DNA of 64,000 nt. Source: Pseudomonadota bacterium (lineage in GTDB: Bacteria; Pseudomonadota; Gammaproteobacteria; Burkholderiales; Burkholderiaceae_C). The notes under the pieces are model-generated. The model did no database searches. It had not been told where the DNA came from and saw nothing but the letters and a program-made list of their open reading frames with translations. The position numbers and the translations under genes were made by a program. Below, piece by piece: positions 16,063 to 52,699 of this stretch. The stretch covers positions 124,001 through 188,000 of the forward strand of contig JAJZVU010000001.1 in the NCBI GenBank assembly GCA_021845505.1, given 5' to 3'. The number at the start of each line of letters is the position of its first letter. The first letter of the stretch is position 1.

Positions 16063-16138
<76 letters not shown>

Positions 16139-16147
16139 ATCGATTCG

Positions 16148-16186
16148 ACGACAAGGCCCCGCCTCACCCGCGGGGCCTTGTCGTTT
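16148..16186 (+). terminator. terminator of tRNA-Phe
   Basis: A perfect 15-bp inverted repeat (ACGACAAGGCCCCGC at 16148-16162 with its complement at 16170-16184) surrounds a 7-nt loop and is followed by a short T tract (GTTTCT). It lies 9 nt after the tRNA. The rest of the gap to 16536 contains a perfect 10-bp hairpin at 16370-16392 (arms GCGAGCGGGC, loop TCA) without a T tract, and the promoter/operator of the IclR gene; no gene is supported there. Confidence 0.85.
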
Positions 16187-16476
16187 CTGCCGGGCGCGCT
16201 GCCAGACTGCGCAGGACTTCGCGTGGCTCCATCACACGCAGGAGTTCACGGTGGAGCGGCACCCGGCGACTTCAACGCAAGGACGCCGCATCGCCGGCTG
16301 CCCCGAGCATCCTTGTGCGAGCAGACCCCCTACGACAGCCGACATGCGCATCGCCGCGGGCAGGTGCGAGCGAGCGGGCTCAGCCCGCTCGCCGACGTGG
16401 TCCTGCGCAACGGCGCATGCGCGGTCGCGTTGCACTGATGCGCGCCCGGCGCGACGCATCTGCGCGTAAACCCGGT

Positions 16477-16506
16477 TTGACAGGCCGCCCGGCACCGCCC
16501 TAGGAT
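16477..16506 (+). promoter_or_regulatory. sigma-70 type promoter of the iclR-like gene
   Basis: A perfect -35 box TTGACA at 16477-16482 and a -10 box TAGGAT at 16501-16506 are separated by 18 nt. Transcription would start near 16513, inside the first operator palindrome, so a bound repressor would occlude initiation. Confidence 0.7.
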
Positions 16507-16507
16507 A

Positions 16508-16542
16508 GTTCATATTCCTGAACACTGTTCACATATATGAAC
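16508..16542 (+). promoter_or_regulatory. twin-palindrome operator over the iclR start codon
   Basis: Two 16-bp palindromes of identical form, GTTCA-N6-TGAAC, occur at 16508-16523 and 16527-16542, with centres 19 bp apart. The second covers the ATG at 16537. The spacing of nearly two helical turns and the repeat of one half-site fit cooperative binding of two dimers of the IclR-family protein encoded immediately downstream, and autorepression. The motif is seen directly; the protein that binds it is inferred. Confidence 0.75.
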
Positions 16543-17322
16543 GACTCAAGCGTCAAGTCTGCGGCGCGCGTGCTCGACCTGCTGGAACTGCTGTCCGTCA
16601 CCGACCACGCCCTGGGCGTTTCCGACGTATCGCGGCGACTGGGCATACCGAAAAGCAGTGCGGCGATGCTCCTCGCCACGCTGGAGAAGCGCGGATATGT
16701 CGTCGGAGACCGCAATCGCCAGTTCTCGCTGCCACCCGCATTCACGGGCGAGGGCTCGTATGTCGGCGGCATCTATGCGGTCTTGCGTCGCCTGGCGCGG
16801 CCGGCGATGCATGCGCTGGTCGAAGCGACAGGGGAAAGTTCCTTCCTGGGAATACTGACCCCGAGCCTGCAACTCCAGTACATAGACAAGGCGCTGAGCA
16901 CCAACGAAGTCCGCTACGACACCGACATCTCCATACCTCGCGCACTGCATTGCACGAGCGTCGGCATGGTCCTGCTCGCCCATCTTCCCGAGCCGGAAAT
17001 CGAGCGCTTCATGCGCCACGCCGACCTCGAGAAGCGCACGACCGAAACCATCAGCGAAGGCGCCGCGCTGAGGGCCGAACTCGCCCAGATCCGCGAACGC
17101 GGCTACGCCTGCGCCCGCGACACCAACGCGGTCGGGGTCGCCGGATTCGCAGCGCCGCTCTTCGGATGGGACGGCACCATCGTGGCCGGCCTCAACATCA
17201 GCGCGCCGACTCTGCGCTTCGACCAGAAGCGCGACCCGATGAGATCGGCGCTGCTCGAGCAAGCCGGTGCGGTCAACGAAGCCTTCAGCAGACTGCGCCT
17301 GCGCTCGGCCGCGGCCGATTGA
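16537..17322 (+). CDS. IclR-family transcriptional regulator
   Basis: A 261-residue regulator. The N-terminal winged helix-turn-helix (about 8-70) contains ALGVSDVSRRLGIPKSSAAM. The C-terminal effector domain (about 80-255) has the family's LARPAMHALVEATGESSFLG and RGYACARDTNAVGVAGFAAP segments. IclR proteins sense small carboxylic or aromatic acids. The target is probably the adjacent lyase/hydratase/MFS/lactonase/oxidase cluster on the same strand, starting 44 nt downstream. Start at ATG 16537 lies inside a twin palindrome and has no clear Shine-Dalgarno sequence, so translation may begin on a very short leader. Confidence 0.9.
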   Translation: MNDSSVKSAARVLDLLELLSVTDHALGVSDVSRRLGIPKSSAAMLLATLEKRGYVVGDRNRQFSLPPAFTGEGSYVGGIYAVLRRLARPAMHALVEATGESSFLGILTPSLQLQYIDKALSTNEVRYDTDISIPRALHCTSVGMVLLAHLPEPEIERFMRHADLEKRTTETISEGAALRAELAQIRERGYACARDTNAVGVAGFAAPLFGWDGTIVAGLNISAPTLRFDQKRDPMRSALLEQAGAVNEAFSRLRLRSAAAD

Positions 17323-17366
17323 TCCCGCGTTGCGCCCCACCCGCGACCAGCCACCCCGAGGACGCC

Positions 17367-18260
17367 ATGAACCCTACCCCGGACCCGCAACGCCGCCGGC
17401 GCCTGCGCCAGCTGATCGAACAACGCTCCCCCTTGCTCATACCGGGCACCGGCGATGCGTTGGGTGCCCGCCTGATCGAGAGGGCAGGCTTCGACGCGGT
17501 CTATGTCTCGGGCTACTGCATCGAAGGCACACATGCCTATCCGGACGTCGGCCTGCTGGGCATGTCGGAGGTCGCGCGCCGCGCGGCGGAGGTCGTCGCC
17601 GCAACGAATCTCCCGGTCCTCTGCGATGCCGACACGGGCTACGGCGGCATCGTCCAGGTGGTGCGTACCGTACGCGAATTCGAGCGCGCAGGCGTGGCCG
17701 CGATCCAGCTCGAAGACCAGGCGCTTCCCAAGCAATGCGGCTCGATGGCGGGCAAGCGACTGGTGGATCTGCCAGAGATGGTGGCCAAGATCCGCGCTGC
17801 GGTCGACGCGCGCGTCGACCCGGACTTCCTCATCATCGGGCGCACCGATTCGATCGCGACCGAGGGGATCGCTGCGGCGATGGCGCGCCTGGACGCCTAT
17901 GCCGAGGCCGGCGCCGACCTGCTCATGGCCCTGGGCCCCTATGCGGTCGACGATGTGCGACGCCTGGCAGGCGCCGCCAGGCGCCCGTTGGTCTACCTGA
18001 ACTCCGAGAGCTTCACGATGCCCATGCTGCCTCCCGCCGAACTGCACGATGCCGGCATCGACATCGTCGTCTTTCCGCTGTCGCTGCTGCTGAGCGCCAC
18101 GCATGCCATGCAGCGCACGCTCGCGCAGATCCGACGCTTCGGCACGACCAGGCCGGTGTGCGCCGACACCATGGTTTCCTGGGCGGAATTCAACGAAATT
18201 GCCGGCCTGCCCGAAATCCGGGAACTCGAAGGCCGCTACACCGACACGCGAGTTCGCTGA
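17367..18260 (+). CDS. isocitrate lyase/PEP mutase superfamily C-C lyase
   Basis: A 297-residue TIM-barrel protein of the ICL/PEP-mutase superfamily, the group of 2-methylisocitrate lyase, dimethylmalate lyase and oxaloacetate decarboxylase. The metal site DADTGYGG includes Asp87 and Asp89, IQLEDQALPKQCGSM carries the candidate catalytic Cys124, and IGRTDSIATEGIAAAMAR is conserved. A catalytic Cys in KQCG suggests a true lyase that cleaves a 2-hydroxy-acid into a 2-oxoacid (glyoxylate or pyruvate) plus a carboxylate. The adjacent aconitase-like hydratase would supply its substrate. Which acid is used cannot be told from sequence. SD-like GAGGA precedes the ATG. Confidence 0.85.
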   Translation: MNPTPDPQRRRRLRQLIEQRSPLLIPGTGDALGARLIERAGFDAVYVSGYCIEGTHAYPDVGLLGMSEVARRAAEVVAATNLPVLCDADTGYGGIVQVVRTVREFERAGVAAIQLEDQALPKQCGSMAGKRLVDLPEMVAKIRAAVDARVDPDFLIIGRTDSIATEGIAAAMARLDAYAEAGADLLMALGPYAVDDVRRLAGAARRPLVYLNSESFTMPMLPPAELHDAGIDIVVFPLSLLLSATHAMQRTLAQIRRFGTTRPVCADTMVSWAEFNEIAGLPEIRELEGRYTDTRVR

Positions 18261-18268
18261 GCCAGGCC

Positions 18269-19597
18269 ATGCGGGATCACGACCGTACGGGACCGCCGCT
18301 GCACAGGCCAGTGGCCGGCAAGACCTTGGCGCAGAAGATCCTGGCGCGCGCAAGCGGCCGCAGCGAAGTCGCCATCGGCGAGGTCGTCGTGGCCCAGCCC
18401 GACGTGTTCGAACTGATCGACCTGGTGCTGCCGCAATACTTCAGGACCCTGCAGCAGCACGGCGTGACGACGTTGAGGTTTCCCGAGCGATGCGTGGTGT
18501 TCGCCGACCATGAAGTGCCGTCGCAGACCGTCCGCATGGCGTCGCTGAAAAAGAACCTGCGTCAGCAGATGCAGGCCTACGGGATGACCACCTTCTATAG
18601 CGAAGGGCGGCATGGCATCAGCCACCAGGCGATCGTCGAGAAGGGCCACATCACGCCCGGGATGCTGGTGTTGAGCGCGGACACCCACGCCACGACGCTG
18701 GGCTGCGTGGGCGCGCTGGCGCCGCCGATCAACTACGAGACCGTCCAGGCGCTCGCCACCGGCGACATCTGGCTCAAGGTACCGCAGACCATCCGGGTCG
18801 AGCTCGTCGGGCGCCTGCCCGCGCACGTGCTCAGCCGCGACCTCGCCCAGCATGTGATCGCCACCCTCGGGCCCGAGCTGTGCGACTACCGGGTGATCGA
18901 ATACGCCGGCCCCGCGATGGCCAATCTGGACATGGACGCTCGCATGACCTTGTGCAACGTGGCGGTCGAAGCCGGTGCCAAGGCCGGACTCGTCGAACCC
19001 GATGCCCTCACCGACGCGTACCTGCGTGCGCGCGCGAAGCAGCCGTACGAGCTGTTGACCAGCGACCCCGATGCGGACTTCCACCACCGCGTGACCATCG
19101 ACCTGGCGACCATCGAGCCGATGGTCGCGGCTCCACCCCGGCCCGACAACCTGGTGCCCATCGCCAGCCTGGCCGGAAAGCGGGTCGACCAGGTCTACAT
19201 CGGCTCCTGCGCGGGCGGCAGACTCGAGGATCTGCGTGCCGCCGCGGCCGTGGTGCGAGGGCGCCAGGTGCATGCCGGCGTCACCATGCTCGTCGTGCCG
19301 ACCAGCCAGGAGATCTTTGCCGCCGCCGCACGCGAAGGGCTGCTGGCGGTGTTCGCCGAGGCGGGCGCGCTGGTGCTGCCGCCCACCTGCGGCCCCTGCT
19401 ACGGCAACCTGGCGCCGCTGACCGACGGCGATGTCTGCATCGGCACGGCGACCACCAACATCCCGGGCCGCATGGGAAGCGCGTCCGCGTCGATCTACCT
19501 GTCCAACGCGGCAGTGGCCGCGGCATCGGGCATCGCGGGCTCGATCTGCACACCGCAACGCCTGCCGGAGCTGTCCGGCGCGCAGGCCAGGCCATGA
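18269..19597 (+). CDS. aconitase/LeuC-type hydratase, large (Fe-S) subunit
   Basis: A 442-residue large subunit of the two-subunit aconitase superfamily (3-isopropylmalate dehydratase, homoaconitase, dimethylmaleate hydratase). The 4Fe-4S ligands are in place: Cys314 in YIGSCAGGRLEDL, and Cys374 and Cys377 in PPTCGPCYGN. Other family blocks are FADHEVPSQT, LVLSADTHATTLGCVGALAPP and ATTNIPGRMGS. It should interconvert an unsaturated di- or tricarboxylate and its 2-hydroxy form. Start at ATG 18269, 8 nt after the lyase stop. Its stop overlaps the small-subunit ATG by ATGA. Divergence from ordinary LeuC, and the absence of leuB or leuA, argue against leucine synthesis. Confidence 0.88.
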   Translation: MRDHDRTGPPLHRPVAGKTLAQKILARASGRSEVAIGEVVVAQPDVFELIDLVLPQYFRTLQQHGVTTLRFPERCVVFADHEVPSQTVRMASLKKNLRQQMQAYGMTTFYSEGRHGISHQAIVEKGHITPGMLVLSADTHATTLGCVGALAPPINYETVQALATGDIWLKVPQTIRVELVGRLPAHVLSRDLAQHVIATLGPELCDYRVIEYAGPAMANLDMDARMTLCNVAVEAGAKAGLVEPDALTDAYLRARAKQPYELLTSDPDADFHHRVTIDLATIEPMVAAPPRPDNLVPIASLAGKRVDQVYIGSCAGGRLEDLRAAAAVVRGRQVHAGVTMLVVPTSQEIFAAAAREGLLAVFAEAGALVLPPTCGPCYGNLAPLTDGDVCIGTATTNIPGRMGSASASIYLSNAAVAAASGIAGSICTPQRLPELSGAQARP

Positions 19598-20127
19598 ACT
19601 GGCGCTGGAAGGGCACGGCCTGGGTCTTCGGCGACGACGTGCCGAACGACGAGGGACTCATGCCCCTGGCGATGACCCGCCGGCAGGAATACGACCCGGC
19701 CGTTCTGGCCAGCCACTGCTTCGAGCAGTTGGACCCGGCGTTCGCCAGACGGGTCAAGCCGCACGACTTCGTGGTGGCAGGCAGGCGCTTCGGCCACGGC
19801 AACCCGCACATCCAGGGCTTCCTGGGGCTGAAGGGCGCAGGGGTCGGACTGCTCGTGGAATCGATGGGCCGGGGGCCCTTGCGCGCCTGCATCAACGCCG
19901 GAGTCCCGGTGCTGCAGGCGCCCGGGTTGCGCGCCTTGTGCCGCGCCGGGGACGAGTTGGAGGTGGATTTCGAGGTCGGCGTCATCCGGAATCTGCGCAC
20001 GGACGGGACGCTGCAGGCGGAGCCCATGCATTCGGTGATGCGCGAAATCATCGCCGCGGGCGGCGGGCTCGCGCACATGATGCAACGCCTGGGAGAGCGG
20101 ACGCGGCAGCGCGGTCCTTGCGCCTGA
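19594..20127 (+). CDS. aconitase/LeuD-type hydratase, small subunit
   Basis: A 177-residue swivelling domain subunit that completes the active site of the preceding large subunit. KGTAWVFGDDVPNDEGLMPL matches the LeuD N-terminus (G-x-V/A-x-x-x-GDxI/V-TD-like), with a change to PNDEG at the usual NTD position. VAGRRFGHGNPHIQGFLGLKGAGVG occupies the position of the substrate-binding loop, with GHGN instead of the LeuD GCGSSRE. The altered loop suggests a substrate different from isopropylmalate. ATG overlaps the large-subunit stop, so translation is coupled. Confidence 0.85.
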   Translation: MNWRWKGTAWVFGDDVPNDEGLMPLAMTRRQEYDPAVLASHCFEQLDPAFARRVKPHDFVVAGRRFGHGNPHIQGFLGLKGAGVGLLVESMGRGPLRACINAGVPVLQAPGLRALCRAGDELEVDFEVGVIRNLRTDGTLQAEPMHSVMREIIAAGGGLAHMMQRLGERTRQRGPCA

Positions 20128-20204
20128 TGGTGCGCCGTGTGGCCGGTCCGGACCCGGATCGGCGTGGACCGGTTCGCACCCAAGACCCATACCTGGAGGA
20201 GACC

Positions 20205-21476
20205 ATGAAGAACACGGAAAATCTGAGCACCCCGCTGGTACCGGGAGCCATGCGCGCGGAGCGCGCCGACGCGATCTCCGGCAACCACGCATGGGCGCTG
20301 CTTGCCATCGTCTGGACGATCTACCTGATCAGTTGCGTCGATCGGCTGGCGTGGGGAAACCTGTCGCTGTCGGTGGGACGCGACCTCCACCTGCCGATCT
20401 CGAGCCTGGGCTTGTTCGTCACGGCCTTCTTCGTCGGGTATGTGATCTCCAACGTCGCCTCGGGAGCCCTGTGCGATGCGATCGGCCCACGACGGCTGCT
20501 CGCCTATGCGATGATCCCGATGGGCTTCTTCACCTTCGTCTTCGGCTCGGTGACCTCGCTGGCCTTCGGGCTCGGTGTGCAGGCATTGATCGGCCTGTGC
20601 GCGGGAGCCGACGCCGTGGCGGGCTTCAAGATCATCTCCGTCTGGTTCGACCGGCGTCGCTGCGGGCGCGCGATGGGAATCTTCCTGACGGGAACCTCGG
20701 GCGCGGTGATCGTCACCAACATCGTCGTGCCCAGGGCCCTGGCGCTGCTCGGCTGGGGCGGTGTCTATCATGCGCTGGGAGTCGTCACCGCACTGTGCGG
20801 CGTGCTGGCGCTGTTCACGTTGCCCGAACTCGGCCGTGCGCCCGGCAAGCAGCCGACGGCGGACACCGGCTGGAGCCACCTCTTCGCCGACAGGACCAAG
20901 ACCTTCGAACTGTCGATGATCGCCCTCGCCGGTTTCGGGGGCTTCTGGGGCATCTGGGGCTTTGCCTTCTGGGCCAACGCACTCATGGTGAAGGCCGCGC
21001 ATCTGTCGCCGGTGCGGGCCGGCGTCATCATGGCGTCCTTCGGCGTGGGGGCCCTGGTGGCCAAGCCGCTGGTCGGGTGGCTGTCCGATCTGCTGGGGGG
21101 CCGACGGCGCGGCCTGGCCATCGTGTCGTTCGTCGCGTTCGCGGTCTCGCTCGTCGTCTTCGGCCACCTGCGCAGCGACACGGCGTTCAACCTGATCGCG
21201 CCGTTGGCCGGGGTCGCGGCGTTCGCGTTCTCCCCTTTGCTCTACGCCATCGTCACCGAGGCGTCAGGGGCGGCCCGCGCCGGGGCCGCGACGGGCTTCG
21301 CGACCGCCTTCTGGCAGCTCGGGACACTGATCGTGCCGGTCGCTGTCGGGTCGCTTTTCCAGGCCACGCATTCCTTTTCGTCGGCCTTCGTGGTCCTCGC
21401 GCTGGGTCCGGCCCTGGGCATGATCTGCCTGCTGTTCGTCCGCGAGCCGCAGGCGAACCGCCGCTCCGCGCACTGA
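20205..21476 (+). CDS. MFS transporter, probable organic-acid uptake
   Basis: A 423-residue major facilitator protein with 12 predicted membrane segments. The loop-2/3 motif SGALCDAIGPRRLLAYAM (variant of GxLaDrxGrrxxl) and the second-half copy VGWLSDLLGGRRRGLAIV are visible. RLAWGNLSLSVGRDLHLPIS resembles the start of anion/hexuronate-type carriers. A good Shine-Dalgarno GGAGGA (20195-20200) precedes ATG 20205. The position inside the lyase/hydratase cluster suggests that it imports the cluster's carboxylate or lactone substrate; specificity is inferred from context only. Confidence 0.88.
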   Translation: MKNTENLSTPLVPGAMRAERADAISGNHAWALLAIVWTIYLISCVDRLAWGNLSLSVGRDLHLPISSLGLFVTAFFVGYVISNVASGALCDAIGPRRLLAYAMIPMGFFTFVFGSVTSLAFGLGVQALIGLCAGADAVAGFKIISVWFDRRRCGRAMGIFLTGTSGAVIVTNIVVPRALALLGWGGVYHALGVVTALCGVLALFTLPELGRAPGKQPTADTGWSHLFADRTKTFELSMIALAGFGGFWGIWGFAFWANALMVKAAHLSPVRAGVIMASFGVGALVAKPLVGWLSDLLGGRRRGLAIVSFVAFAVSLVVFGHLRSDTAFNLIAPLAGVAAFAFSPLLYAIVTEASGAARAGAATGFATAFWQLGTLIVPVAVGSLFQATHSFSSAFVVLALGPALGMICLLFVREPQANRRSAH

Positions 21477-21524
21477 CCCGCCCGCACGCCAGCGGCCTTG
21501 CAGCATGCCGGACGGGTTCCATCC

Positions 21525-22418
21525 ATGATCATCGACACCACCCCCTTCGCGGTGATGCCCGGCTCTTTGCGCCGCCCCGGCGTGACGGCCTGGTCGAACG
21601 CCAACATGGCCGGCCGGCCGGTCGACAGCTTCATCGAGGGCCCCTGCTTCGATGCGCGGGGCCATCTCTACGTCACCGACATTCCGCATGGACGGATCTT
21701 CCGGGTGACGGCGGGCGCGGACTGGCAGGTGATCGCCGAATACGACGGGGAGCCGAACGGTCTGGCCTGCCATCCAGACGGCCGGCTGTTCATCGCCGAC
21801 TATCGCCGAGGCCTGCTGAGTCTGGACCCCGATTCGGGAACGCTGACCACCGTGCTGGCGCGACGCAATTCGGAATCCTTCAAGGGCCTGAACGACCTGG
21901 TCTTTGCAGGCAACGGCGACCTGTATTTCACCGATCAGGGGCAGACCGGTCTGCATGATCCGACGGGCCGCGTCTTCCGCCTGCGCCCCGACGGCACGCT
22001 GGACTGCCTGATCGACAATGGCCCCAGTCCGAACGGCCTGGCCTTGTCGCCCGACGAAGGGGTCCTGTACGTGGCCATGACCCGAGACAACTCCGTCTGG
22101 CGTCTGCCGCTGATGAAGGACGGATCGACCAGCAAGGTGGGTCGCTTCCGCCTGTTCCACGGCACCGGCGGCCCCGACGGGATGGCGATGAACCGCGAGG
22201 GCTTCCTCTTCGTCGCCCATGTCTCGCTGGGCACGGTGTTCGTCCTCGACCCCGACGGCGACGAGGTGGCACGCATCCGTTCCTGCGCGGGAAAGGCCAC
22301 CACCAATGTCACGTGGCGAGGCGCCGATCAGGGCGTCGCCTACATCACGGAGTCGGCGACCGGCACGGTGCTGCGCGCCCGCCTGCCGGAGCTGCGGGTT
22401 GTCGACGCAGGCCTTTGA
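21525..22418 (+). CDS. SMP-30/gluconolactonase-family lactonase
   Basis: A 297-residue six-bladed beta-propeller of the SMP-30/gluconolactonase/LRE family, which hydrolyses sugar-acid or other lactones with a divalent metal. The metal-ligand blocks are recognisable: Glu38 in FIEGPCFDARGHLYVTDI, the Asn in FKGLNDLVFAGNG with GDLYFTDQG, and SPNGLALSPDEGVLYVAMT. Start at ATG 21525 (MIIDTTPF); a TTG 27 nt upstream is in frame but less likely. Between the carrier and the FAD oxidase, it probably opens a lactone form of a hydroxy-acid in the pathway. Confidence 0.88.
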   Translation: MIIDTTPFAVMPGSLRRPGVTAWSNANMAGRPVDSFIEGPCFDARGHLYVTDIPHGRIFRVTAGADWQVIAEYDGEPNGLACHPDGRLFIADYRRGLLSLDPDSGTLTTVLARRNSESFKGLNDLVFAGNGDLYFTDQGQTGLHDPTGRVFRLRPDGTLDCLIDNGPSPNGLALSPDEGVLYVAMTRDNSVWRLPLMKDGSTSKVGRFRLFHGTGGPDGMAMNREGFLFVAHVSLGTVFVLDPDGDEVARIRSCAGKATTNVTWRGADQGVAYITESATGTVLRARLPELRVVDAGL

Positions 22419-22448
22419 ACGCCGGCGCGGACCGTTGTGCGAGCGAAG

Positions 22449-23636
22449 ATGATCTACGACTTCTGCGTCATCGGGGGCGGCATCGTCGGGCTGGCGACGG
22501 CGATGGAACTGCTGCGGCGCGAGCCGGCCGCGTCGCTGCTGCTGCTCGAGAAGGAGCCTGCGCTCGCAACCCATCAGACCGGCCACAACAGTGGCGTGAT
22601 CCACGCGGGCGTCTACTATGCGCCGGGCAGCTTGAAGGCCGAGCTGTGCCGACGCGGATCGGCAGCCACCCAGGACTTCTGCAGGCAGCACGGGATTGCC
22701 TTCGACGTGTGCGGCAAGCTGCTGGTCGCCTCGACGGCCATCGAATGGGCACGCATGGACGCCTTGCACGCGCGTGCCCGGCACAACGGCTTGCGCGTGG
22801 AACGCCTCGATGCCGCCGAGCTGCAGCGGCGTGAGCCGAACATCGTCGGACTCGGCGCGCTCTGGGTGGAGGCGACCGCCATCGTCGATTACCGGAAGAT
22901 CGCCCAGGCGATGGCGCGAGTCGTCGCCGCGGCGGGTGGGGACATCCGGCTGGGCACGCAGGTGACGTCGATCGCCGAAACGCACGACAGCGTGTCCGTC
23001 GGCGCCGGCGACGTGCGCTGGAAGGCCAGGAAGCTCGTGGCCTGCGCGGGCCTGCAGTCCGATCGGCTGGCCCGCCTCGCGGGCCTCGAGACCGCATTCC
23101 AGATCATCCCGTTTCGCGGTGAGTACTACCGGCTGCCGGCTTCCAGGAAGGATGTCGTGAAGCACCTCATCTATCCGATCCCGGACCCCGACCTGCCGTT
23201 TCTTGGCATCCACCTGACCCGCACGATCGACGGGGGTGTCACGGTGGGGCCGAACGCGGTGCTGGGCCTGGCTCGAGAAGGGTACAGGAAGTTCTCCGTG
23301 GAACCGCGCGACGTCGCCCGGTACCTGGCGTTCCCGGGGTTCTGGAAGGTCATGCGGACGCACTTCGCTTCAGGGCTTGGGGAACTGAAGAACTCGCTGT
23401 CCAGGCGCGGCTATCTCGAACAGTGCCGCAAATACTGTCCGACCCTGGAGCTTGCCGATCTGCTGCCCCACGAGGCGGGAATCCGCGCCCAGGCCGTGCT
23501 GCGCGACGGCACGCTGGTGCATGATTTCCTGTTCCTCGACACGCCACGCATGGTGCACGTGTGCAATGCGCCGTCGCCGGCGGCGACTTCGGCGATTCCC
23601 ATCGGCTCGATGATCGCGGACAGGATCCTGGGCTGA
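22449..23636 (+). CDS. lhgO: LhgO-like FAD-dependent L-2-hydroxyacid oxidase
   Basis: A 395-residue flavoprotein that closely follows L-2-hydroxyglutarate oxidase LhgO, which converts L-2-hydroxyglutarate to 2-oxoglutarate and passes electrons to the respiratory chain. The dinucleotide fold is CVIGGGIVGLATAMELLRR at the N-terminus. The LhgO-typical THQTGHNSGVIHAGVYYAPG and the C-terminal GIRAQAVLRDGTLVHDFLF and VCNAPSPAATSA are present. Start at ATG 22449; a GTG 12 nt upstream is an alternative. It is the last gene of the IclR-linked run. A related 2-hydroxydicarboxylate is equally possible as substrate. Confidence 0.85.
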   Translation: MIYDFCVIGGGIVGLATAMELLRREPAASLLLLEKEPALATHQTGHNSGVIHAGVYYAPGSLKAELCRRGSAATQDFCRQHGIAFDVCGKLLVASTAIEWARMDALHARARHNGLRVERLDAAELQRREPNIVGLGALWVEATAIVDYRKIAQAMARVVAAAGGDIRLGTQVTSIAETHDSVSVGAGDVRWKARKLVACAGLQSDRLARLAGLETAFQIIPFRGEYYRLPASRKDVVKHLIYPIPDPDLPFLGIHLTRTIDGGVTVGPNAVLGLAREGYRKFSVEPRDVARYLAFPGFWKVMRTHFASGLGELKNSLSRRGYLEQCRKYCPTLELADLLPHEAGIRAQAVLRDGTLVHDFLFLDTPRMVHVCNAPSPAATSAIPIGSMIADRILG

Positions 23637-23750
23637 AGGACGCCGGGCCGGGTCCGCTGCCATGGCCCGTCCCGGTCCGCGCTGAAGTACAGTGTCGGCT
23701 GAGCGAACATCCGCTCGCAGCTCGAACCTTCCGCAACGCTGGAACCTTCC

Positions 23751-24419
23751 ATGATCGACAAGTTCGTCGAGTCCGCAGACGCGGCATTGCAAGGCATCGC
23801 CGACGGGGCCACGGTGATGATCGGCGGCTTCGGCGGCGCCGGGCAGCCGGTGGAGCTGATCGACGCGCTGCTGGCCAACGGGGTGCGCGACCTCACGGTG
23901 GTCAGCAACAACGCGGGCAACGGCGACACCGGGCTGGCCGCGCTGCTGGCCGCAGGCCGGGTGCGCAAGATCATCTGTTCGTTCCCGCGCCAGGTCGACT
24001 CCCACGTTTTCGACGCGCTGTACCGCCAGGGGCGCATCGAGCTCGAGCTGGTGCCGCAAGGCAACCTGGCCGAGCGGATCCGCGCCGCCGGCGCGGGCAT
24101 CGGCGCCTTCTACACCCCCACCGGGTACGGCACGCTGCTCGCGCAGGGCAAGGAGACGCGGGAGATCGACGGGCGCATGTACGTGCTGGAAAAACCCATC
24201 CATGCCGACGTCGCGCTCATCCAGGCCGAGCGCGGCGATCGCTGGGGCAACCTCACCTACCGCAAGACCGCGCGCAACTTCGGGCCGATCATGGCGACCG
24301 CGGCCGCGCTGACCATCGCCGCGGTACGCGAAGTGGCCGAACTGGGCAGCATCGACCCCGAATGCGTGGTCACGCCGGGGGTGCATGTCGATCGCCTGGT
24401 CCACCTGGCGCGCGCCTGA
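23751..24419 (+). CDS. 3-oxoacid CoA-transferase, subunit A
   Basis: A 222-residue alpha subunit of a family I CoA-transferase (succinyl-CoA:3-ketoacid or acetoacetate type). MIGGFGGAGQPVELIDALL is the subunit A glycine-rich start, followed by LTVVSNNAGNGDTGLAALL, and FYTPTGYGTLLAQGKETREI with RKTARNFGPIMATAA near the end, all characteristic of the family. Start at ATG 23751. The upstream 30 nt contain AACCTTCC twice (ending at 23726 and 23750). Subunit B follows after 22 nt. Whether it belongs functionally to the preceding island is open; it could activate a dicarboxylate or recycle acetoacetate. Confidence 0.92.
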   Translation: MIDKFVESADAALQGIADGATVMIGGFGGAGQPVELIDALLANGVRDLTVVSNNAGNGDTGLAALLAAGRVRKIICSFPRQVDSHVFDALYRQGRIELELVPQGNLAERIRAAGAGIGAFYTPTGYGTLLAQGKETREIDGRMYVLEKPIHADVALIQAERGDRWGNLTYRKTARNFGPIMATAAALTIAAVREVAELGSIDPECVVTPGVHVDRLVHLARA

Positions 24420-24441
24420 GGCGCCCGAGCGGAGAACCTTG

Positions 24442-25080
24442 ATGCAGAACTGGACACGCGAGCAGATGGCCCGGCGGCTGGCCGCGGACATTCCCGAGGG
24501 CGCGGTGGTGAACCTGGGGATCGGGCTGCCCACGCTGGTGGCCAACCACCTCGACCCCGACCGCGAGGTCGTGCTGCACACCGAGAACGGGCTGCTGGGA
24601 ATGGGGCCGGCGCCTGCGCCCGGCGCGGAGGACCCCGACCTGGTCAACGCCGGCAAGCAGCCGGTCACGGCCTTGCCCGGCGCCAGCTTCTTCCACCACG
24701 GCGACAGCTTCGCGATGATGCGCGGAGGGCATATCGACATCTGCGTGCTCGGCGCGTTCCAGGTGTCGGCGCGCGGCGACCTGGCGAACTGGAGCACCGG
24801 AGCGCCGGGCGCCATCCCGGCGGTCGGCGGCGCCATGGACCTGGCGGTCGGTGCGCGCAACACCTGGGTGATGATGGAATACCTGGCGCGCGACGGCAGC
24901 TGCAAGATCGTGCGCGACTGCAGCTACCCGCTGACCGCGGTGGCCTGCGTCGACCGCGTCTACACCGACCTCGCGGTGCTCGAATTCTCCGACGGCGCGC
25001 TGCGCGTGCTCGACATGGCTCCGGGCTGGGACCTCCAGGCCCTGCAGCGCGTCACCCCGGTGCAGCTGGCGCGCGGCTGA
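24442..25080 (+). CDS. 3-oxoacid CoA-transferase, subunit B
   Basis: The 212-residue beta subunit. The catalytic glutamate is Glu48 in LHTENGLLGMGP, which forms the CoA thioester. NLGIGLPTLVANHLDPDREV and the later MRGGHIDICVLGAFQVSARG and GAMDLAVGARNTWVMMEY are family hallmarks. Start at ATG 24442 (MQNWTREQMARR) preceded by GGAG; the open frame upstream overlaps subunit A and is discounted. Both subunits together form a complete heteromeric transferase. Confidence 0.93.
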   Translation: MQNWTREQMARRLAADIPEGAVVNLGIGLPTLVANHLDPDREVVLHTENGLLGMGPAPAPGAEDPDLVNAGKQPVTALPGASFFHHGDSFAMMRGGHIDICVLGAFQVSARGDLANWSTGAPGAIPAVGGAMDLAVGARNTWVMMEYLARDGSCKIVRDCSYPLTAVACVDRVYTDLAVLEFSDGALRVLDMAPGWDLQALQRVTPVQLARG

Positions 25081-25084
25081 GGAG

Positions 25085-25104
25085 GCCCGCACGCGCTTGC
25101 GGGC
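25085..25104. terminator. hairpin between convergent CoA-transferase and phosphoesterase genes
   Basis: GCCCGCA at 25085-25091 pairs with TGCGGGC at 25098-25104 around a 6-nt loop, in the 64-nt space between two converging genes. No T tract follows on either strand, so terminator function is only plausible. Confidence 0.35.
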
Positions 25105-25144
25105 GCTGCCGCGGGCGGCTCCGGCGATCCGATCGCCTGCAGGC

Positions 25145-26239
25145 TCACCGCGCCGGCGCGCCGAAACGCCTCGTCGGGTGGCGCTCGCCGGTGTCGAGCA
25201 CGAGTTCGCGCTCGGGCCAGCGCAACGCGGCCAGGCGGGTTTGCGGCGCCGCTTCGCCGGCGCGTTCGCGGTAGCGTCCGCCGACCGAGTAGTCGACACA
25301 GAACACCCGGCCGCGCGGGCCCATCCAGTCGAGCGGGGCGATGCCCGCGAACAGATCGCCGTCGCCCTGCGACGGATGCGGTGGCTGCGCTGGCTTCCAG
25401 TGCCTCCAGAAGTGCCCGACCACCACCGGCACCTCGTCCGCGTAGTCGTCCCACCAGGGCACGCGACGCGCGAAGCGCCACTGGCCGCCGGCGTAGAAGG
25501 GCGCCTGCGCCCGGCGCTCGATCCCCGACGTGAGCACCCGCAGCGGATTGCCCATCTGTCGCTGCTGGTCGCAATGCGCGACGGCCTCGAGCATCGGCAT
25601 CGCATACCGCGGGTCGGCGAAGGCGTGGCGGTGCGCGGCCTTTTCGGCGGCCGCGCGCTGCGCCCAGCCGGCCGCCGCCAGTCCGGCGTCGGACTGCGCG
25701 TCCCAGCGCGCGAACAGGCCGGCCAGCGGGCCCTCGCCGTGGCCCGCCCGGCGCAGCGAGTCGGCGTGCCAGGCCGCGTGGACGACGCGCAGGTCGTCGC
25801 GCAGCAGCGCCAGCGGCAGGCCGTCGAACCATTGCAGCCACTGCGCGCGGAGCTCGCCCGGCACGCGGGCGTAGGGCTCGAACACCGCGTCGCGGCGCGA
25901 GCCCTCGTCCCAGAACCAGTCGTTGCCCAGCTTGCGCTGGCCGCGCAGCAGGTTGAGCTCGTGGTTGCCCAGCACCACCCGCGCGCCCGCGCGATCGACC
26001 TGGCGTCGCACCAGTTCGAGCACGCCCACGCTGTCGGGGCCGCGGTCGACCAGGTCGCCGACGAACACCAGCCGGCGCCCCTGCGGGTGGCTGCCGTCGG
26101 CGGCATGGCCGAGCAGACGCAGCAATTCGCGCAGCGCCTGGAGCTCGCCGTGCACGTCGCCGACGATGTCCAGCGGGCCGGCGGGCAGGGCCTCGATGCG
26201 CGAGCCGCGCGGGCTGGCGTCGGAGCTCATCGTTGGCAT
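25145..26239 (-). CDS. calcineurin-like metallophosphoesterase (PPP/ApaH type)
   Basis: A 364-residue phosphoesterase. The binuclear-metal motifs appear in order: GDVHGE (Asp28, His30), GDLVDRGPDS (Asp62, Arg66) and GNHELNLL (Asn92, His93), followed by a VVHAAWH motif and a GHFWRHW histidine near residue 280. This is the PPP serine/threonine phosphatase / diadenosine tetraphosphatase arrangement; the larger size and long insert between GNHE and the last His separate it from ApaH itself (about 280 aa). Start at the Met coded at 26239, seven bases after GGAGGG; a second Met three codons later is the alternative. Substrate unknown. Confidence 0.85.
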   Translation of the reverse strand: MPTMSSDASPRGSRIEALPAGPLDIVGDVHGELQALRELLRLLGHAADGSHPQGRRLVFVGDLVDRGPDSVGVLELVRRQVDRAGARVVLGNHELNLLRGQRKLGNDWFWDEGSRRDAVFEPYARVPGELRAQWLQWFDGLPLALLRDDLRVVHAAWHADSLRRAGHGEGPLAGLFARWDAQSDAGLAAAGWAQRAAAEKAAHRHAFADPRYAMPMLEAVAHCDQQRQMGNPLRVLTSGIERRAQAPFYAGGQWRFARRVPWWDDYADEVPVVVGHFWRHWKPAQPPHPSQGDGDLFAGIAPLDWMGPRGRVFCVDYSVGGRYRERAGEAAPQTRLAALRWPERELVLDTGERHPTRRFGAPAR

Positions 26240-27129: not shown

Positions 27130-28185
27130 CTAGTCCGCGGCCTGTTCCCAGCGCGCCAGCAACTCGGCGGGTATCGCCTGCACGATGTCGGCGTAGCGCC
27201 TGCCGACCAGCCGCTCGGCCTGGCGCAGCAGCACCGCCACCGGGCTGCTGGGTTCGTGCTCCTCGAACCACGCGCGGGCGCCGGCGATGCAACGACGGGC
27301 GGCGTCGCGGTGCTGCGGTACGCACCCGGCATCGGACTGCACCAGCGCCTGCGCATCGGACTGCACCAGCGCCTGCGCATCGGACTGCACCAGCGCCTGC
27401 GCAGCGGACTGCGCGCGCACCGGCGCATCAGCGTGCGCGGCCGGCTCGGCGGCGCGTTGCGCGGCGGCGGGCGGTGGCGGCCGCGCGAAGGGCTGCAGCA
27501 GCCGCAGCAGCGCGCCGAGGTCCGGCATGTGCTCGCCCAGGTCGGCAGCGGCCCACTCGAGCAGCGCCTGCAAGTGCAACCAGCCCTGGTGCAGCGCCAG
27601 GCAGTGGGGATCGGCAGCCTGCCAGGCCCGTTGCAGCTCGCGCTGCATCGGCTGGCAGGCTGCCTCGCCTGCTCCCAGCGCGTGCTCGACCTCGCGCAGC
27701 CTGCGCGGCTCGCCGCCGCAGCGCAGCGCGACGAGGTCGCGCAGATCGGCCAGCAGGCCTTGCGGGTCGGCCAGCTGCGCCAGCGCATTGGCGCGCAGCA
27801 CCGGATCGTGGCGGCCCTCGACCACGGCCTGCGGGTGGATGTGGGCACCCAGCGCGCGCACCACCTGCGACACCTGCCGCAGGCCGTTCTGCAGCCCTTG
27901 CGCTCCGGCGTTGCGCACCCGGCAGCGCAGCCACCAGACCAGCAGCGTGAGGTCGCGGCTGCGCTCCAGCAAGCGCGCGCAGTCGCGCTCGAGCTCGTTC
28001 CACCGAGGACCCTGGCGTCGCTGCGCGAGGTCGCCGCACTCGGGATCGTCGGCGGGCAGCATGCGCGCCTGCAGCGCGGCGTACGCGGCGTCGTATTCGA
28101 GCCAGGGCCCTGCCGGGCACGGCCCGCCCAGCGGCCGCATCCACTCCCCGGTGCCGTGCTCGGGCGCGCCATCGAGCCCGCTCAT
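27130..28185 (-). CDS. tssA: type VI secretion protein TssA
   Basis: A 351-residue protein with an ImpA-type N-terminal domain (about 15-130: PCPAGPWLEYDAAYAALQ, then RWNELERDCARLLERSRDL and LLVWWLRCRVRNAG). TssA proteins cap the growing sheath and link it to the baseplate. A linker near residue 260-285 contains three exact copies of AQALVQSD, coded by a 24-bp tandem repeat. The C-terminal 60 residues are helical. This is the last gene of the operon; its ATG overlaps the tssG stop (ATGA). A hairpin follows. Confidence 0.85.
   Translation of the reverse strand: MSGLDGAPEHGTGEWMRPLGGPCPAGPWLEYDAAYAALQARMLPADDPECGDLAQRRQGPRWNELERDCARLLERSRDLTLLVWWLRCRVRNAGAQGLQNGLRQVSQVVRALGAHIHPQAVVEGRHDPVLRANALAQLADPQGLLADLRDLVALRCGGEPRRLREVEHALGAGEAACQPMQRELQRAWQAADPHCLALHQGWLHLQALLEWAAADLGEHMPDLGALLRLLQPFARPPPPAAAQRAAEPAAHADAPVRAQSAAQALVQSDAQALVQSDAQALVQSDAGCVPQHRDAARRCIAGARAWFEEHEPSSPVAVLLRQAERLVGRRYADIVQAIPAELLARWEQAAD
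27331..27402 (-). repeat. 24-bp tandem repeat inside tssA
   Basis: Three exact 24-bp copies (27331-27354, 27355-27378, 27379-27402) encode three in-frame copies of AQALVQSD, followed by a degenerate fourth. Because the unit is a multiple of three, copy-number change would lengthen or shorten the linker without breaking the frame. Confidence 0.9.
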
Positions 28186-29207
28186 CGGGTGCCCGCCGCG
28201 GAGTCGAACACCAGGCTCAGCACGCCTGGGTCGCGCGGGTCGGCGAGCCAGGCGCTGCAGCCCAGCGCGCCGGGCCCGCCCAGCGCGGCGGCGCGCGCCT
28301 GCGAGGCCGCAAGCAGCAGCTCCAGGTCCCAGTCGTGGTCGACGCCGATGCACGCGCGCACGCAGGCCTGCAGCGCGGCGAAGGCCGAGCCGCGGCCCGG
28401 CAGCAGCTGCAGGTAGCTGGCGCGCTGCAGCGGCCCGAACACGATGCGCAGCCGACCCTGGCGGTCGGGCACGCGCTCGCCCAGGCATGCGGCATCCGCC
28501 AGGCATGCGCCACGGTCTGCGGCGCCCAGGCGCGAGCGCTCGGACGGATCGATGCGCAGCCACTGCAGCACGAATTCCTCGATGCGCACCGGGAGCTGCC
28601 AGTGGGCCTGCAACGCAGCGCGCAGCGCGGCGGCGGTGCGCACCGGGCGCAGGCGCTGCGCGGCGCTGGCCCAGCGCGCGTGCGCCGGCCACGGCCCCGC
28701 GGGCTGGCGCGGGCTGTCGCCGGACAGGCTGGCCACGTAGAGGGTGAAGGGCTCGCGTTGGCGGTCGTCCAGCCCGGCGCAGGCCTGCGCCTGCGCCCAG
28801 GCGCGGTACAGCAGGCACAGCGCGCGGTGATGGAACAGATCGAGGAAGTCGAGCAGCGCTCGGTCGCGGCCGGCGTGCAGGCATTCGTGCGCCAGCTCGG
28901 TGTAGTGCAGCGGCAGCGCGCCGTTCGGCCCGAGCATGCCCAGGCCGTACAGGTCGATGCGCAGGCCGCCACCGCGGCTGGCGATCGCCGCGATCTCCCG
29001 CGGCGCGAATGCCAGGCTGGGCTGTTGCCCGAGCCGCAGGATCTCCCGGCGCGGCAGCCGCGCCTGGCCGATGGCCGGCGCATCGGGCTGGCTGGCCTGC
29101 AGCCTGCGCAGCAGCGCGAACAGCTGCCAGCGCCAAGGCTGCCGCGCCGCCCGCTGCAGCCACCGCGGCAGCTCGCCGGCGTCGGGGTCGCGCTCACGCG
29201 GGGTCAC
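28182..29207 (-). CDS. tssG: type VI secretion baseplate protein TssG
   Basis: A 341-residue baseplate wedge subunit that binds TssF. Family blocks are WRWQLFALLRRLQASQPDAP, LGMLGPNGALPLHYTELAHE, LLDFLDLFHHRALCLLYRAW and the C-terminal YLQLLPGRGSAFAALQACVR. Start at GTG 29207, overlapping the tssF stop in GTGA; no ATG occurs near the family start. The 3' end overlaps tssA by 4 nt. Confidence 0.93.
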   Translation of the reverse strand: MTPRERDPDAGELPRWLQRAARQPWRWQLFALLRRLQASQPDAPAIGQARLPRREILRLGQQPSLAFAPREIAAIASRGGGLRIDLYGLGMLGPNGALPLHYTELAHECLHAGRDRALLDFLDLFHHRALCLLYRAWAQAQACAGLDDRQREPFTLYVASLSGDSPRQPAGPWPAHARWASAAQRLRPVRTAAALRAALQAHWQLPVRIEEFVLQWLRIDPSERSRLGAADRGACLADAACLGERVPDRQGRLRIVFGPLQRASYLQLLPGRGSAFAALQACVRACIGVDHDWDLELLLAASQARAAALGGPGALGCSAWLADPRDPGVLSLVFDSAAGTR

Positions 29208-31099
29208 AGCGCCTCGCGCCCGCCCATGCGCAGCGGGCCCCGCCAGATCGGCCCGCGCTGCAAGGTGTGCACCTCGGTGCTGCAGCAGGTGTTGATGGCC
29301 ACGTATTGCGCCATCCACTGCTCCAGCACCATGCCCAGCAGCAGCGGGCTGCCGGGGCTGAAGGCGCTCTCGTCGAATTCCAGCCGGGCCTGCACCGCAC
29401 GCCCGTGCACCAGCGGGCCGGGCAGCGGCAGGCGCCGGGTGCGGACCTCGATGCGCGCGCCGCGCAGCGCCTCGATGCGCGCGGCTGCGGCGGCGTCGGC
29501 CGCCGGGGCGAACAGCCGCAGCAGTTCGCGCAGCGCCTGCGCCCCGGACTGCGCGTCGAGCTCGGCCAGCGGCAGATGGTGCAGCCCGAGCAGGCGGATG
29601 AACTGCCACGCCGGATGATCGAGGCCCAGCGGCGGCCGCGGCGGCGAGGGCGGCCGCAACAGCCTGGCATCGCGCAACTGCGCCGCCACGGTCAGCTGCA
29701 GGCCCGCGCCCGACTCGCCAGCCAGCCACAGCGGCAGGTCGCGGTTGCTCAGCCAGGCGCGAGCCCACAGTTGATGCAGATCCAGCGGATGCGGCGCATC
29801 GAACTGGTCGACCAGGCTGGCGTACACCTCGGTGCCGACATACGGCGAGCGAGCGCCGCGCCGCAATGCGGCCTGCGATGGCCGCCGCGGCTCGCGGCGC
29901 AGCGAAAAGTACCTGCGGTGGTCCCCGCCGTCGCGCTGCAGCGTCTGGTACAGCGGGCGGAACACCCGTTCGCGGCCGTCCGCCGCGGCATGTCCGCGCA
30001 GTTCGTCGACGCCCCAGACCTCGAAGTCCAGCGGCCGCGTGCGGTCGGCCACGACGTGGCATTCGCTGCTGCCCGCGGCCAGCTGCAGGCGCTCGGTGCG
30101 CGCCTCGAACAGGTTGACCACCGGAGTGCAGCCCAGCACGAAGGTCTGTTCGTCGACCCACGAGCCCAATGGCCCGGGGTCTCGTCGCAGCAGCAGCCAC
30201 AGGTCGACTTCGCCGCCGGCCGTCCGGGCCAGCGCCTGCTCCAGCCCGTGCAGCGTGAACTCGAGCAGGCACGCCGGGGCGTGGAAGTACTCCAGCAACA
30301 GGTTGTGGGACGCCAGCCAGCCGGGACGCAGCGGCAGCGCTCCCTGGCCGGGTTGCAGCGCCTGGCACGACAGCGAGCAGCCGGGCAGCGGCGTGGCGCG
30401 GTCGACCCTGCCGGGCAGCCCGGCGACGCAGCCTGCGAAGCTGCCGTGCAGCAGCTCGAACACCTGCGCGGCGACGGCCTCGTCGCCGCCCAGATGCACC
30501 CGCAGGCTGTGCAGCCCCTGCAGCTGGTCCAGCCGCCACGGCGGCAAGGCGCGCAGGCGCAGCCGCAGGCAGGCGCGGACCCCCGCCGCGCCGCGCTGCC
30601 CGGCCTGCGCCGCGGCCGCGAGCACCGCCGCGCCGAACGCCGGCAGCCCGCGCTGCAGCTCGGCCTCGGCGATGTCCACAGGCCACAGCTCGAGTTCGCG
30701 CGCGCTGCGCCACTGCACCTCGGTGTCGGGGTGGCTGGCCAGCCGCGTGGACATCGCGGTGCGCGGCGGCAGGCGCAGGCCGGTGGCCATTTCGGAGCGA
30801 TCCGGGTCGGGCTGCAGCCGGGCCACCGCCATCGCGGGCAGCGGGCTGAGGAACTGCGGCTGCACCACCTCCAGCAGCCTGCCGGAAAAACGGGGGAACT
30901 CGGCATCGAGCTGGATGCGGGTGCGCGCGCTGAGCAGGCAGAAGGCCTCGATCAGCCTCTCGACGTAGGGGTCGGCGATCGCCGGCGCCGCGGCCCCCAG
31001 GTGCGAGGCCACTGCCGGATGCTCGCGCGCGAACTCGGCCGCGCACTGCCGCATGTACAGCAGCTCCTGGTTGAAATACTCGAGCAGCCGCGGGTGCAT
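29204..31099 (-). CDS. tssF: type VI secretion baseplate protein TssF
   Basis: A 631-residue baseplate wedge protein. It begins MHPRLLEYFNQELLYMRQCA, the standard TssF start, and includes FAREHPAVASHLG, DPYVERLIEAFCLLSARTRI and the FPRFSGRLLEVVQPQFLSPL segment; near the C-terminus CCSTEVHTLQRG is also typical. Its ATG shares one base with the tssE stop, and its stop overlaps the tssG GTG. Length is normal for the family (about 590-630). Confidence 0.95.
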   Translation of the reverse strand: MHPRLLEYFNQELLYMRQCAAEFAREHPAVASHLGAAAPAIADPYVERLIEAFCLLSARTRIQLDAEFPRFSGRLLEVVQPQFLSPLPAMAVARLQPDPDRSEMATGLRLPPRTAMSTRLASHPDTEVQWRSARELELWPVDIAEAELQRGLPAFGAAVLAAAAQAGQRGAAGVRACLRLRLRALPPWRLDQLQGLHSLRVHLGGDEAVAAQVFELLHGSFAGCVAGLPGRVDRATPLPGCSLSCQALQPGQGALPLRPGWLASHNLLLEYFHAPACLLEFTLHGLEQALARTAGGEVDLWLLLRRDPGPLGSWVDEQTFVLGCTPVVNLFEARTERLQLAAGSSECHVVADRTRPLDFEVWGVDELRGHAAADGRERVFRPLYQTLQRDGGDHRRYFSLRREPRRPSQAALRRGARSPYVGTEVYASLVDQFDAPHPLDLHQLWARAWLSNRDLPLWLAGESGAGLQLTVAAQLRDARLLRPPSPPRPPLGLDHPAWQFIRLLGLHHLPLAELDAQSGAQALRELLRLFAPAADAAAAARIEALRGARIEVRTRRLPLPGPLVHGRAVQARLEFDESAFSPGSPLLLGMVLEQWMAQYVAINTCCSTEVHTLQRGPIWRGPLRMGGREAL

Positions 31100-39551: not shown

Positions 39552-39562
39552 CGCGGGCCGCC

Positions 39563-40897: not shown

Positions 40898-40899
40898 GG

Positions 40900-41990: not shown

Positions 41991-42039
41991 GCTCGCTCCT
42001 GTGGGGTTGTGGGGACCGAAGGGAAGGCGCCGCCAAGGC

Positions 42040-52672: not shown

Positions 52673-52699
52673 AATCGCCCCTTCGGCATGGAAATCTCC

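Follow-up and report, generated by a model that had tools for sequence, protein, structure and literature searches.

The stretch of DNA analysed here (the window) comprises 64,000 nucleotides of a Burkholderiaceae_C bacterium (contig JAJZVU010000001.1, positions 124,001 to 188,000; contig C21 in our numbering) and is part of a 3.70 Mb assembly of 84 contigs that is 99.5% complete. It contains an operon of seven genes, all on the + strand (16537-23636), which begins 398 bp past a tRNA-Phe gene (16063-16138, the single Rfam match at gathering score). The genes encode, in order, an IclR-family regulator (16537-17322; PF01614 and PF09339, the best NCBIfam model being BhcR with 131.5 bits against a cut-off of 350), a C-C lyase of the phosphoenolpyruvate (PEP) mutase/isocitrate lyase (ICL) superfamily (17367-18260; PF13714, 167.9 bits), a LeuC/aconitase-like large subunit (18269-19597; PF00330), a LeuD-like small subunit (19594-20127; phmmer match to 3vba with E 1.1e-27), a major facilitator superfamily (MFS) transporter (20205-21476; PF07690, with TIGR00893 at 111.7 bits against a cut-off of 395), a probable lactonase of the SMP-30/gluconolactonase family (21525-22418; PF08450, 141.1 bits) and a member of the L-2-hydroxyglutarate oxidase family, LhgO (22449-23636; NF008726). 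The intergenic gaps are 44, 8, -4, 77, 48 and 30 bp; like the coordinates, they depend on the start codons that we chose, and GTG at 22437 is another possible start of LhgO. The first-pass annotation of this DNA had given these coordinates, the strand, the distance from tRNA-Phe and Cys124 of the lyase in a KQCG motif, all of which are borne out by the gene calls. The layout also supports its description of a single catabolic operon headed by the IclR gene, but its count of six genes was wrong, since its own list names seven. Compared with the single sister genome (G024), all seven genes have omega values of 0.09-0.21; this purifying selection indicates that the genes are real, and pseudogenes or chance reading frames were ruled out.

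The main point of this analysis is the small subunit, a LeuD-like protein without GSSRE in which the motif Arg is switched to His. This was missing from the first-pass annotation, as were the altered lyase and the sister operons described below. The alignment with 3vba is ungapped across the active-site motif and places FGHGNPHIQG opposite FGCGSSREHA. GNPHI takes the place of the GSSRE found in isopropylmalate isomerases and aconitases, with Asn70-Pro71-His72 for Ser-Ser-Arg. By position, Asn70 stands for the general-base Ser and His72 for the motif Arg, which we take to correspond to Arg644 of aconitase. In aconitase the general base is Ser642, according to the accessible part of PMC8184944. 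The protein misses the NCBIfam LeuD models (TIGR02087, 101.6 against 108.95 bits; TIGR02084, 84.5 against 245.85), and no Pfam match at 0.001 was found for it.

Related proteins were compared at 91 loci. A single peptide pattern, derived from nine aligned LeuC rows, was run against a collection of 84,980 species, and the best 80 of 468 LeuC relatives were taken together with 11 other loci (L044-L049, L059-L063). L050-L058 were excluded; L052-L056 duplicate loci already included. Without L114, 87 LeuD-like proteins could be aligned, that of the window among them, and no two are identical. The position of the motif Arg is occupied by His in 76 of these proteins and by Arg in 11, with no third residue, the alignment of L046 and L177 being less certain owing to a gap inside the motif. 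Seven further small subunits were read by hand; they have His in L108 (GNPH) and Arg in the other six (L047, L057, L058, L116, L183 and the second one in L109). At the Ser position, His is found in 69 of the 87 proteins, Ser in 13, Asn in two, Lys in two and Gln in one. The most frequent His-type motif is FGYGHPHYP, whose exact DNA form occurs in 3 of 398 genomes of the phylum. A third His-type form, which retains the serine, appears in L120 (8336-11763) and likewise in L110 (FAQGSNH and FAHGSVH); at both loci the lyase motif is KKCGAM and an additional gene separates the lyase from LeuC. Further His-type LeuCD pairs are those of L046, L177 and L063, with no lyase scored alongside, and of L113, whose lyase looks distant.

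The large subunit of the window retains the Fe-S cysteines (Cys314, Cys374, Cys377), and these positions hold Cys in all 89 aligned LeuC rows. Two further positions were compared with Arg447 and Arg452 of aconitase, whose roles are presumed. The Arg452 position holds Arg in 89/89 rows. The Arg447 position is occupied by Thr396 in the window protein; it is Arg in 11/11 rows from Arg-type loci and a residue other than Arg in 72/76 rows from His-type loci, the exceptions being L110, L120 and the two LeuC proteins of L109. The second of the L109 proteins has its own Arg-type small subunit, which changes the latter count to 72/75. At the Ser166 position the window has Thr, and Ser is found in 15 of the 89 rows. 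The LeuC tree (35 rows) forks with support of 99/97 into a side of 15 rows, which holds both methanogen references and has Arg-type partners wherever a partner was read, and a side of 20 rows with His-type partners. Branches are long on both sides, and two joins within the halves were flagged as doubtful.

The lyase belongs to the PEP mutase/isocitrate lyase superfamily, as judged by PF13714 and the catalytic Cys, and falls below every NCBIfam equivalog cut-off listed, the best being PrpB (246.5 against 354.4 bits). Counted from the catalytic Cys, Leu189 lies at the position of Glu188 of methylisocitrate lyase, an enzyme in which we presume the roles of Glu188 and Asn210. The catalytic residue of methylisocitrate lyase is Cys123 (PMC7609661, accessible part). 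The window lyase shares K[QK]CGSM, MALGPY and YLNSESFTMP with that of L108, and the lyase tree (57 rows) unites these two and G024 in a clade with support of 100/99. This clade is separate from methylisocitrate lyase and from petal death protein, the latter being itself a long branch of uncertain position; support for the deeper position of the clade is low (57/40). For the references included, two in each tree, the tree check did not refute the reading of the first-pass annotation, since the window lyase and LeuC are both separated from them.

The presence of Glu was scored at each locus by pairwise alignment of its most similar lyase with that of the window. Among 86 loci with a scored LeuD, Glu is absent in 69/69 His-type loci that have a scored lyase; of the five Arg-type loci with a lyase, four have Glu, and the lyase is unscored in 12 of the 86. 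L060 was scored via a lyase that does not adjoin LeuC, and the adjoining one (identical with L008) has Asp. Further GSSR loci have Glu (L026, L208, L212) or Asp (L051). The 34 closest lyase loci of other genomes (L187-L220) have Glu in 27 cases, Asp in one and neither in six. Fisher's test gives p 4e-6 for the co-variation of LeuD and lyase, a value that counts kin loci as independent and is not used here as a probability. We read the data as a pattern, with few lineages on its His side, in which loss of the lyase Glu appears to track the His switch in LeuD.

The families found at the 91 loci (stretches of up to about 21 kb) were named from window matches, profile scores, plasmid annotations or reading of translations. 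They include LeuC at 87 loci, LeuD at 86, the lyase at 75, IclR at 56, an ABC ATPase at 49, a tripartite-tricarboxylate-type binding protein at 41, a metallo-beta-lactamase (MBL) family protein at 19 and two GlcD-like FAD oxidase families at 18 and 10. Operons of Variovorax, Azospirillum, Alsobacter and relatives resemble that of the window in having the same trio of lyase, LeuC and LeuD, a transporter and often IclR, with His for Arg in LeuD and a lyase without Glu; some add an MBL lactonase-like protein and a GlcD-like oxidase. They differ from it in the LeuD motif (FGYGHPHYP), in a lyase loop that is mostly KRCP or KRCA, and in LeuC, which is about 39-42% identical, and those displayed have no match to the SMP-30, LhgO or MFS proteins of the window. 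Since the simplest sister arrangement consists of IclR, LeuC, LeuD, lyase and binding protein, central metabolism may be within reach of just two enzymes. The MBL protein of Variovorax has its best scores with lactonases, and the FAD protein with GlcD, all under cut-offs. The window has SMP-30 and LhgO in their place, and we take it that unrelated families may perform these two accessory functions, opening of a lactone and oxidation of a 2-hydroxyacid, perhaps with opposite stereochemistry. In the Peribacillus plasmid locus L047 (6781-10685), the genes on either side of a LeuCD pair with ordinary GSSRE encode a CoA-transferase and a hydroxymethylglutaryl-CoA lyase; this may be a CoA-dependent way of doing without the ICL-type lyase.

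The trio in its window version is rare in the collections searched. Among the best 80 of the 468 LeuC relatives, close ones occur in L107 (identical with G024; 95%) and in L108, a Burkholderiaceae metagenome-assembled genome (79%), and the next reaches 43%. In 399 genomes of the order the next LeuC has 43% and the next lyase 47% identity, and in 398 genomes of the phylum the next lyase has 46%, both samples omitting some genomes. In the plasmid collection, 520/520 LeuC and 400/400 lyase matches are below 60%. Within a genus sample of 28 genomes, of which 21 have a completeness of 90% or more and no more than 5% contamination, a close LeuC is present in two (the window's own genome and G024, 95%), and LhgO in three, the third protein being a 36% relative. 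The best LeuC identity in 32 more distant genomes of the same search is 39%.

The operon is a maintained block that was probably acquired laterally, because it occurs sporadically and has a lower GC content, higher dS and low omega. Its GC content is 68.1%, compared with 71.5% before and 73.2% after it, and the GC content at third codon positions (GC3) is 0.81-0.90 in the seven genes and 0.91 in the upstream NtrX gene. Identity to the syntenic DNA of G024 is 95.6% up to 16193, 91.8% over the operon (16287-23671) and 95.1% over the CoA-transferase region (23671-25129). Likewise, dS relative to the sister genome is 0.19-0.33 in the seven operon genes; for three genes that flank them it was measured as 0.09-0.12. 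Both sporadic occurrence and deviant composition, the usual marks of horizontal acquisition, are thus observed. A classical tRNA-borne integrative element was rejected, as no integrase was recognised among the called window genes, whose translations were read by eye, and the 3' end of tRNA-Phe (its final 14 bases or more) is not repeated elsewhere in the window.

Upstream of the IclR gene, a consensus scan located a promoter-like site, TTGACA-18-TAGGAT (16477-16506, + strand), the one found compared with a mean of 0.4 in shuffles of 16139-25200. It is followed by the tandem palindromes GTTCATATTCCTGAAC and GTTCACATATATGAAC (16508-16542), a probable IclR operator, the second of which overlaps the IclR start codon. 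Both are perfect, 16 bp long and of the form GTTCA-N6-TGAAC (16508-16523 and 16527-16542). No other place in the window matches exactly, and six more sites match with one mismatch. The whole genome has 12 exact places (a control pattern has one), 10 of them outside the operon, and the sole tandem pair is that at 16508-16542. The sister genome retains both palindromes with one spacer base different. The promoter-like site, the tandem palindrome over the IclR start and its conservation in the sister genome fit an operon that is probably autorepressed or autoregulated through this putative operator. The promoter-like site and the palindromes, as well as the CoA-transferase pair described below, are additions to the first-pass annotation.

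Tentatively, and with confidence that falls a little short of even, we propose that these genes represent an unrecorded branch of the aconitase superfamily in which His replaces the Arg of GSSRE, usually with loss of the serine, and which would have co-evolved with Glu-less lyases. The two enzymes would form a "shift hydroxyl, then split" module, present in beta-, alpha- and a few other bacteria and combined with interchangeable lactonases and oxidases, the window being the rarest version found. Several observations weigh against the functional reading of the operon that is proposed below. FGYGHPHYP accounts for 67/87 LeuD proteins, that is, 67/76 His-type rows, so that the co-variation rests on few lineages. 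L062 combines a GSSRE LeuD with a lyase that lacks Glu, and Glu is not universal elsewhere either, being absent from the lyases of L204, L206, L207 and L209-L211, whose LeuD partner is not known. The regulator in L108 is of the LysR type, as read from its translation, and not IclR. Combined with the trio, SMP-30, LhgO and MFS occur in no species but that of the window and its sister, and none of the other loci displayed, L108 included, has a match to them. Finally, the LhgO score is about twice the equivalog cut-off (604.6 against 299), so the protein is a member of that family by the curated score; this points to L-2-hydroxyglutarate itself, for which the operon has no obvious source gene. 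The six lyases without Glu just mentioned (order-level) have a KKCGHI loop, and in G047, which holds L207, a LeuC-like gene lies about 7.5 kb off on the same contig.

Some of these facts also bear on a different explanation, namely that two separable units were joined by transfer: lyase, LeuC and LeuD with a carboxylate of their own, and SMP-30 and LhgO (with MFS) for a lactone of the L-2-hydroxyglutarate type. L108 has the trio in the order LysR, lyase (54%), tripartite-tricarboxylate-type binding protein, LeuC (79%) and LeuD (71%), the first and third being named from reading translations, and its 11.3 kb contig contains no match to SMP-30, LhgO or MFS. LhgO shares 76% identity with a protein of a Paraburkholderia plasmid, none of the three LhgO relatives displayed with their neighbours adjoins LeuCD or a lyase, and lhgO of pDC3000B is flanked by a regulator and an MFS gene. 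Five SMP-30 relatives (L224-L228) have no LeuCD and lyase inside 8 kb. However, the seven genes lie on a single strand with gaps of at most 77 bp behind one promoter-like site, and sister operons couple the trio to other genes that resemble lactonases and 2-hydroxyacid oxidases. We regard the joining of two units as unlikely, although it deserves serious attention. The SMP-30 protein is 68.5% identical to a Roseomonas mucosa plasmid protein whose gene is preceded by an IclR gene. The L224-L228 relatives lie in islands with, in four of five, tripartite-tricarboxylate binding proteins and, variously, amidohydrolases, RraA-family proteins, MmgE/PrpD, tartrate dehydrogenase and CoA-lyases, which hint at lactones of polycarboxylates.

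As to function, we consider it an evenly balanced proposition that the operon is an acquired, probably autoregulated set for the catabolism of a single hydroxy-acid, which would also exist in lactone form. The MFS protein would import the acid or its lactone, and SMP-30 would hydrolyse the latter. The LeuCD-type Fe-S hydro-lyase may then dehydrate and rehydrate the acid, moving or adding a hydroxyl, after which the ICL-superfamily lyase would split the C2-C3 bond of the resulting 2-hydroxyacid by retro-aldol cleavage, with Cys124 as the proton donor, to give glyoxylate or pyruvate as the 2-oxoacid, together with another acid. LhgO would oxidise an L-2-hydroxyacid of the route. We infer each of these steps, their direction and the class of substrate; the gene families support, as a working logic, the scheme of the first-pass annotation, in which import and lactone opening are combined with an Fe-S hydro-lyase, a C-C lyase and an oxidase of 2-hydroxyacids. 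Also in favour of this reading are the close spacing of the genes behind a promoter-like site and a conserved tandem palindrome, the purifying selection, the recurrence of the trio in L108, the lyase that accompanies LeuC/LeuD at 75 of the 91 loci, and the joint changes in LeuD, LeuC and lyase. Because LeuD has His and Asn in its motif, LeuC has Thr at the Arg447 position and the lyase has Leu at the Glu188 position, the substrate probably does not carry its carboxylates in the usual places of citrate, isopropylmalate and isocitrate. An acid with one carboxylate swapped for another group fits better, itatartarate being an example that we do not claim as the substrate.

The same replacements in the binding positions of both enzymes make isocitrate, methylisocitrate, isopropylmalate and homoisocitrate unlikely, and homoisocitrate, methylisocitrate and dimethylmalate are disfavoured as substrates of the operon. 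An ordinary pathway of the methylisocitrate, citramalate or dimethylmalate type (DmdAB with dimethylmalate lyase), altered by mundane sequence divergence, would account for LeuC passing the PRK00402 and TIGR01343 subfamily cut-offs, for PrpB being the best lyase equivalog and for the presence of dimethylmalate lyase (3fa3) among the solved relatives of the lyase with E 1.4e-43. It does not easily explain the replaced GSSRE, Arg447 and Glu188 positions or the isolated branches of the window lyase and LeuC. Moreover, a PrpB-like protein is encoded separately in the genome and joins a solved methylisocitrate lyase in the tree at 100/100. This explanation appears quite improbable to us.

The first-pass annotation had offered homoisocitrate, cleaved to glyoxylate and glutarate with L-2-hydroxyglutarate as the branch for the oxidase, as a testable idea. 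In its full form, homocitrate lactone would be opened, isomerised by a homoaconitase-like enzyme and cleaved in this way, and LhgO would act on L-2-hydroxyglutarate. Homocitrate forms a gamma-lactone, LhgO is present in the operon, and LeuC passes TIGR01343, a subfamily model of the homoaconitate hydratase family, but it misses the HACN equivalog cut-off (343.9 of 550), and the substrate-binding positions of LeuC, LeuD and lyase are replaced. The idea also needs a source of L-2-hydroxyglutarate, and CsiD is the sole enzyme known to us that makes it from glutarate. CsiD turned out to be absent from 28/28 genomes of the genus, including the window's own, while a control of 14 genomes was positive in E. 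coli only, as expected. With the control working, formation of L-2-hydroxyglutarate from glutarate via CsiD is very unlikely here. The idea is thus not supported, and we consider the homoisocitrate route as a whole very improbable.

A slightly less remote, although still very improbable, route would start from 2-hydroxyparaconate, a lactone, and proceed via itatartarate and LeuCD to 3-(hydroxymethyl)malate, whose cleavage would yield glyoxylate and 3-hydroxypropionate. A lactonase for 2-hydroxyparaconate has been described in a bacterium, and the authors of that work suggest, as a speculation, that itatartarate is dehydrated by an enzyme resembling aconitase (PMC9875883, accessible part). The CH2OH branch that takes the place of a carboxylate is consistent with the replaced binding positions. 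However, that lactonase is not of the SMP-30 type but a small Rdo protein, and LhgO would have no obvious job. Itaconate genes were not noticed among the listed window genes, at which no family search for them was aimed.

Several known systems resemble the operon in part. The methanogen isopropylmalate/citramalate isomerase and homoaconitase (4nqy/3vba and 4kp2/2pkp) have the same two-subunit layout, Fe-S cysteines and His/Asp core, and LeuC matches 4nqy with E 3.7e-90; the window differs from them in GNPHI for GSSRE, in Thr at the Arg447 position and in having LeuC across the 99/97 split. PrpB and petal death protein (9hra, 1zlp) belong to the superfamily of the window lyase and share with it the catalytic Cys in KxCG and the DxDTGxGG and RTD motifs, whereas the window lyase is under the PrpB cut-off, has Leu at the Glu188 position and YLNSESF for ANxTEFG, and forms a separate clade. 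The glutarate route of Pseudomonas (PMC5974017, accessible part) has LhgO in common with the operon and differs in its CsiD. In Pseudomonas aeruginosa, the 2-hydroxyparaconate lactonase route likewise opens a lactone to a branched hydroxydicarboxylate, but with a lactonase of another family and CoA-based itaconate genes, and the accessible part of PMC9875883 contains no mention of LeuCD or an ICL-type lyase. Aconitase X (AcnX) is likewise an aconitase-superfamily hydro-lyase with an altered active site. According to the accessible text of PMC8184944, AcnX retains the serine base and differs in its Fe-S and substrate sites; the window protein keeps the three Fe-S Cys and has a changed serine motif. 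A study of isoprene mentions 2,3-dimethylmalate lyase in a methylcitrate cluster only, as far as its accessible part extends (PMC9804861).

In the open-licence literature, subscription papers being mostly outside this scope, no described operon of LeuCD with an ICL-type lyase and no GSSRE-less LeuD branch was recognised. This agrees with the view of the first-pass annotation that the gene combination matches no pathway known to it, and is weak evidence that the operon and the LeuD branch have not previously been in print. More than 15 of 20 active-site residues are identical across the classic members of the aconitase superfamily (PMC8184944, accessible part). A serine-less branch that co-varies with an altered lyase is notable in a superfamily whose active-site chemistry is a textbook case of conservation. 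If the branch is indeed tied to Glu-less lyases, it would imply that both the hydro-lyase mechanism and the degradation pathway are new, and proteins of such operons would be wrongly annotated as "3-isopropylmalate dehydratase" and "isocitrate lyase/PEP mutase family". The question of the substrate is testable, because strains of Variovorax and Azospirillum have the sister operon.

Downstream of the operon, at a distance of 115 bp, lie genes for subunits A (23751-24419, + strand; TIGR02429, 377.5 against 128.5 bits; GC3 0.92) and B (24442-25080, + strand; TIGR02428, 285.6 against 243.55 bits; GC3 0.94) of a 3-oxoacid CoA-transferase. Related pairs are found in G026 (86%) and G015 (71%). In G026, which does not have the operon LeuC, the pair has a LysR-type gene on one side and, on the other, an IclR-type regulator with an amidohydrolase, as read from the translations. 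The pair was rejected as a sure member of the operon in view of this occurrence, its backbone-like GC3 and its dS of 0.12, compared with 0.19-0.33 in the operon. It probably belongs to the backbone, and its membership in the operon is doubtful.

Elsewhere in the window, reading of translations points to a block resembling type VI secretion on the - strand (27130-44270), with TssB, TssC, Hcp, TssK, VgrG, TssM, TssF and TssG, and to an ABC transporter operon of the branched-chain amino-acid type on the same strand (49441-54012). Between them, at 45112-45209, lies a tandem array with a 32-bp unit in 3.1 copies and 93% matches.

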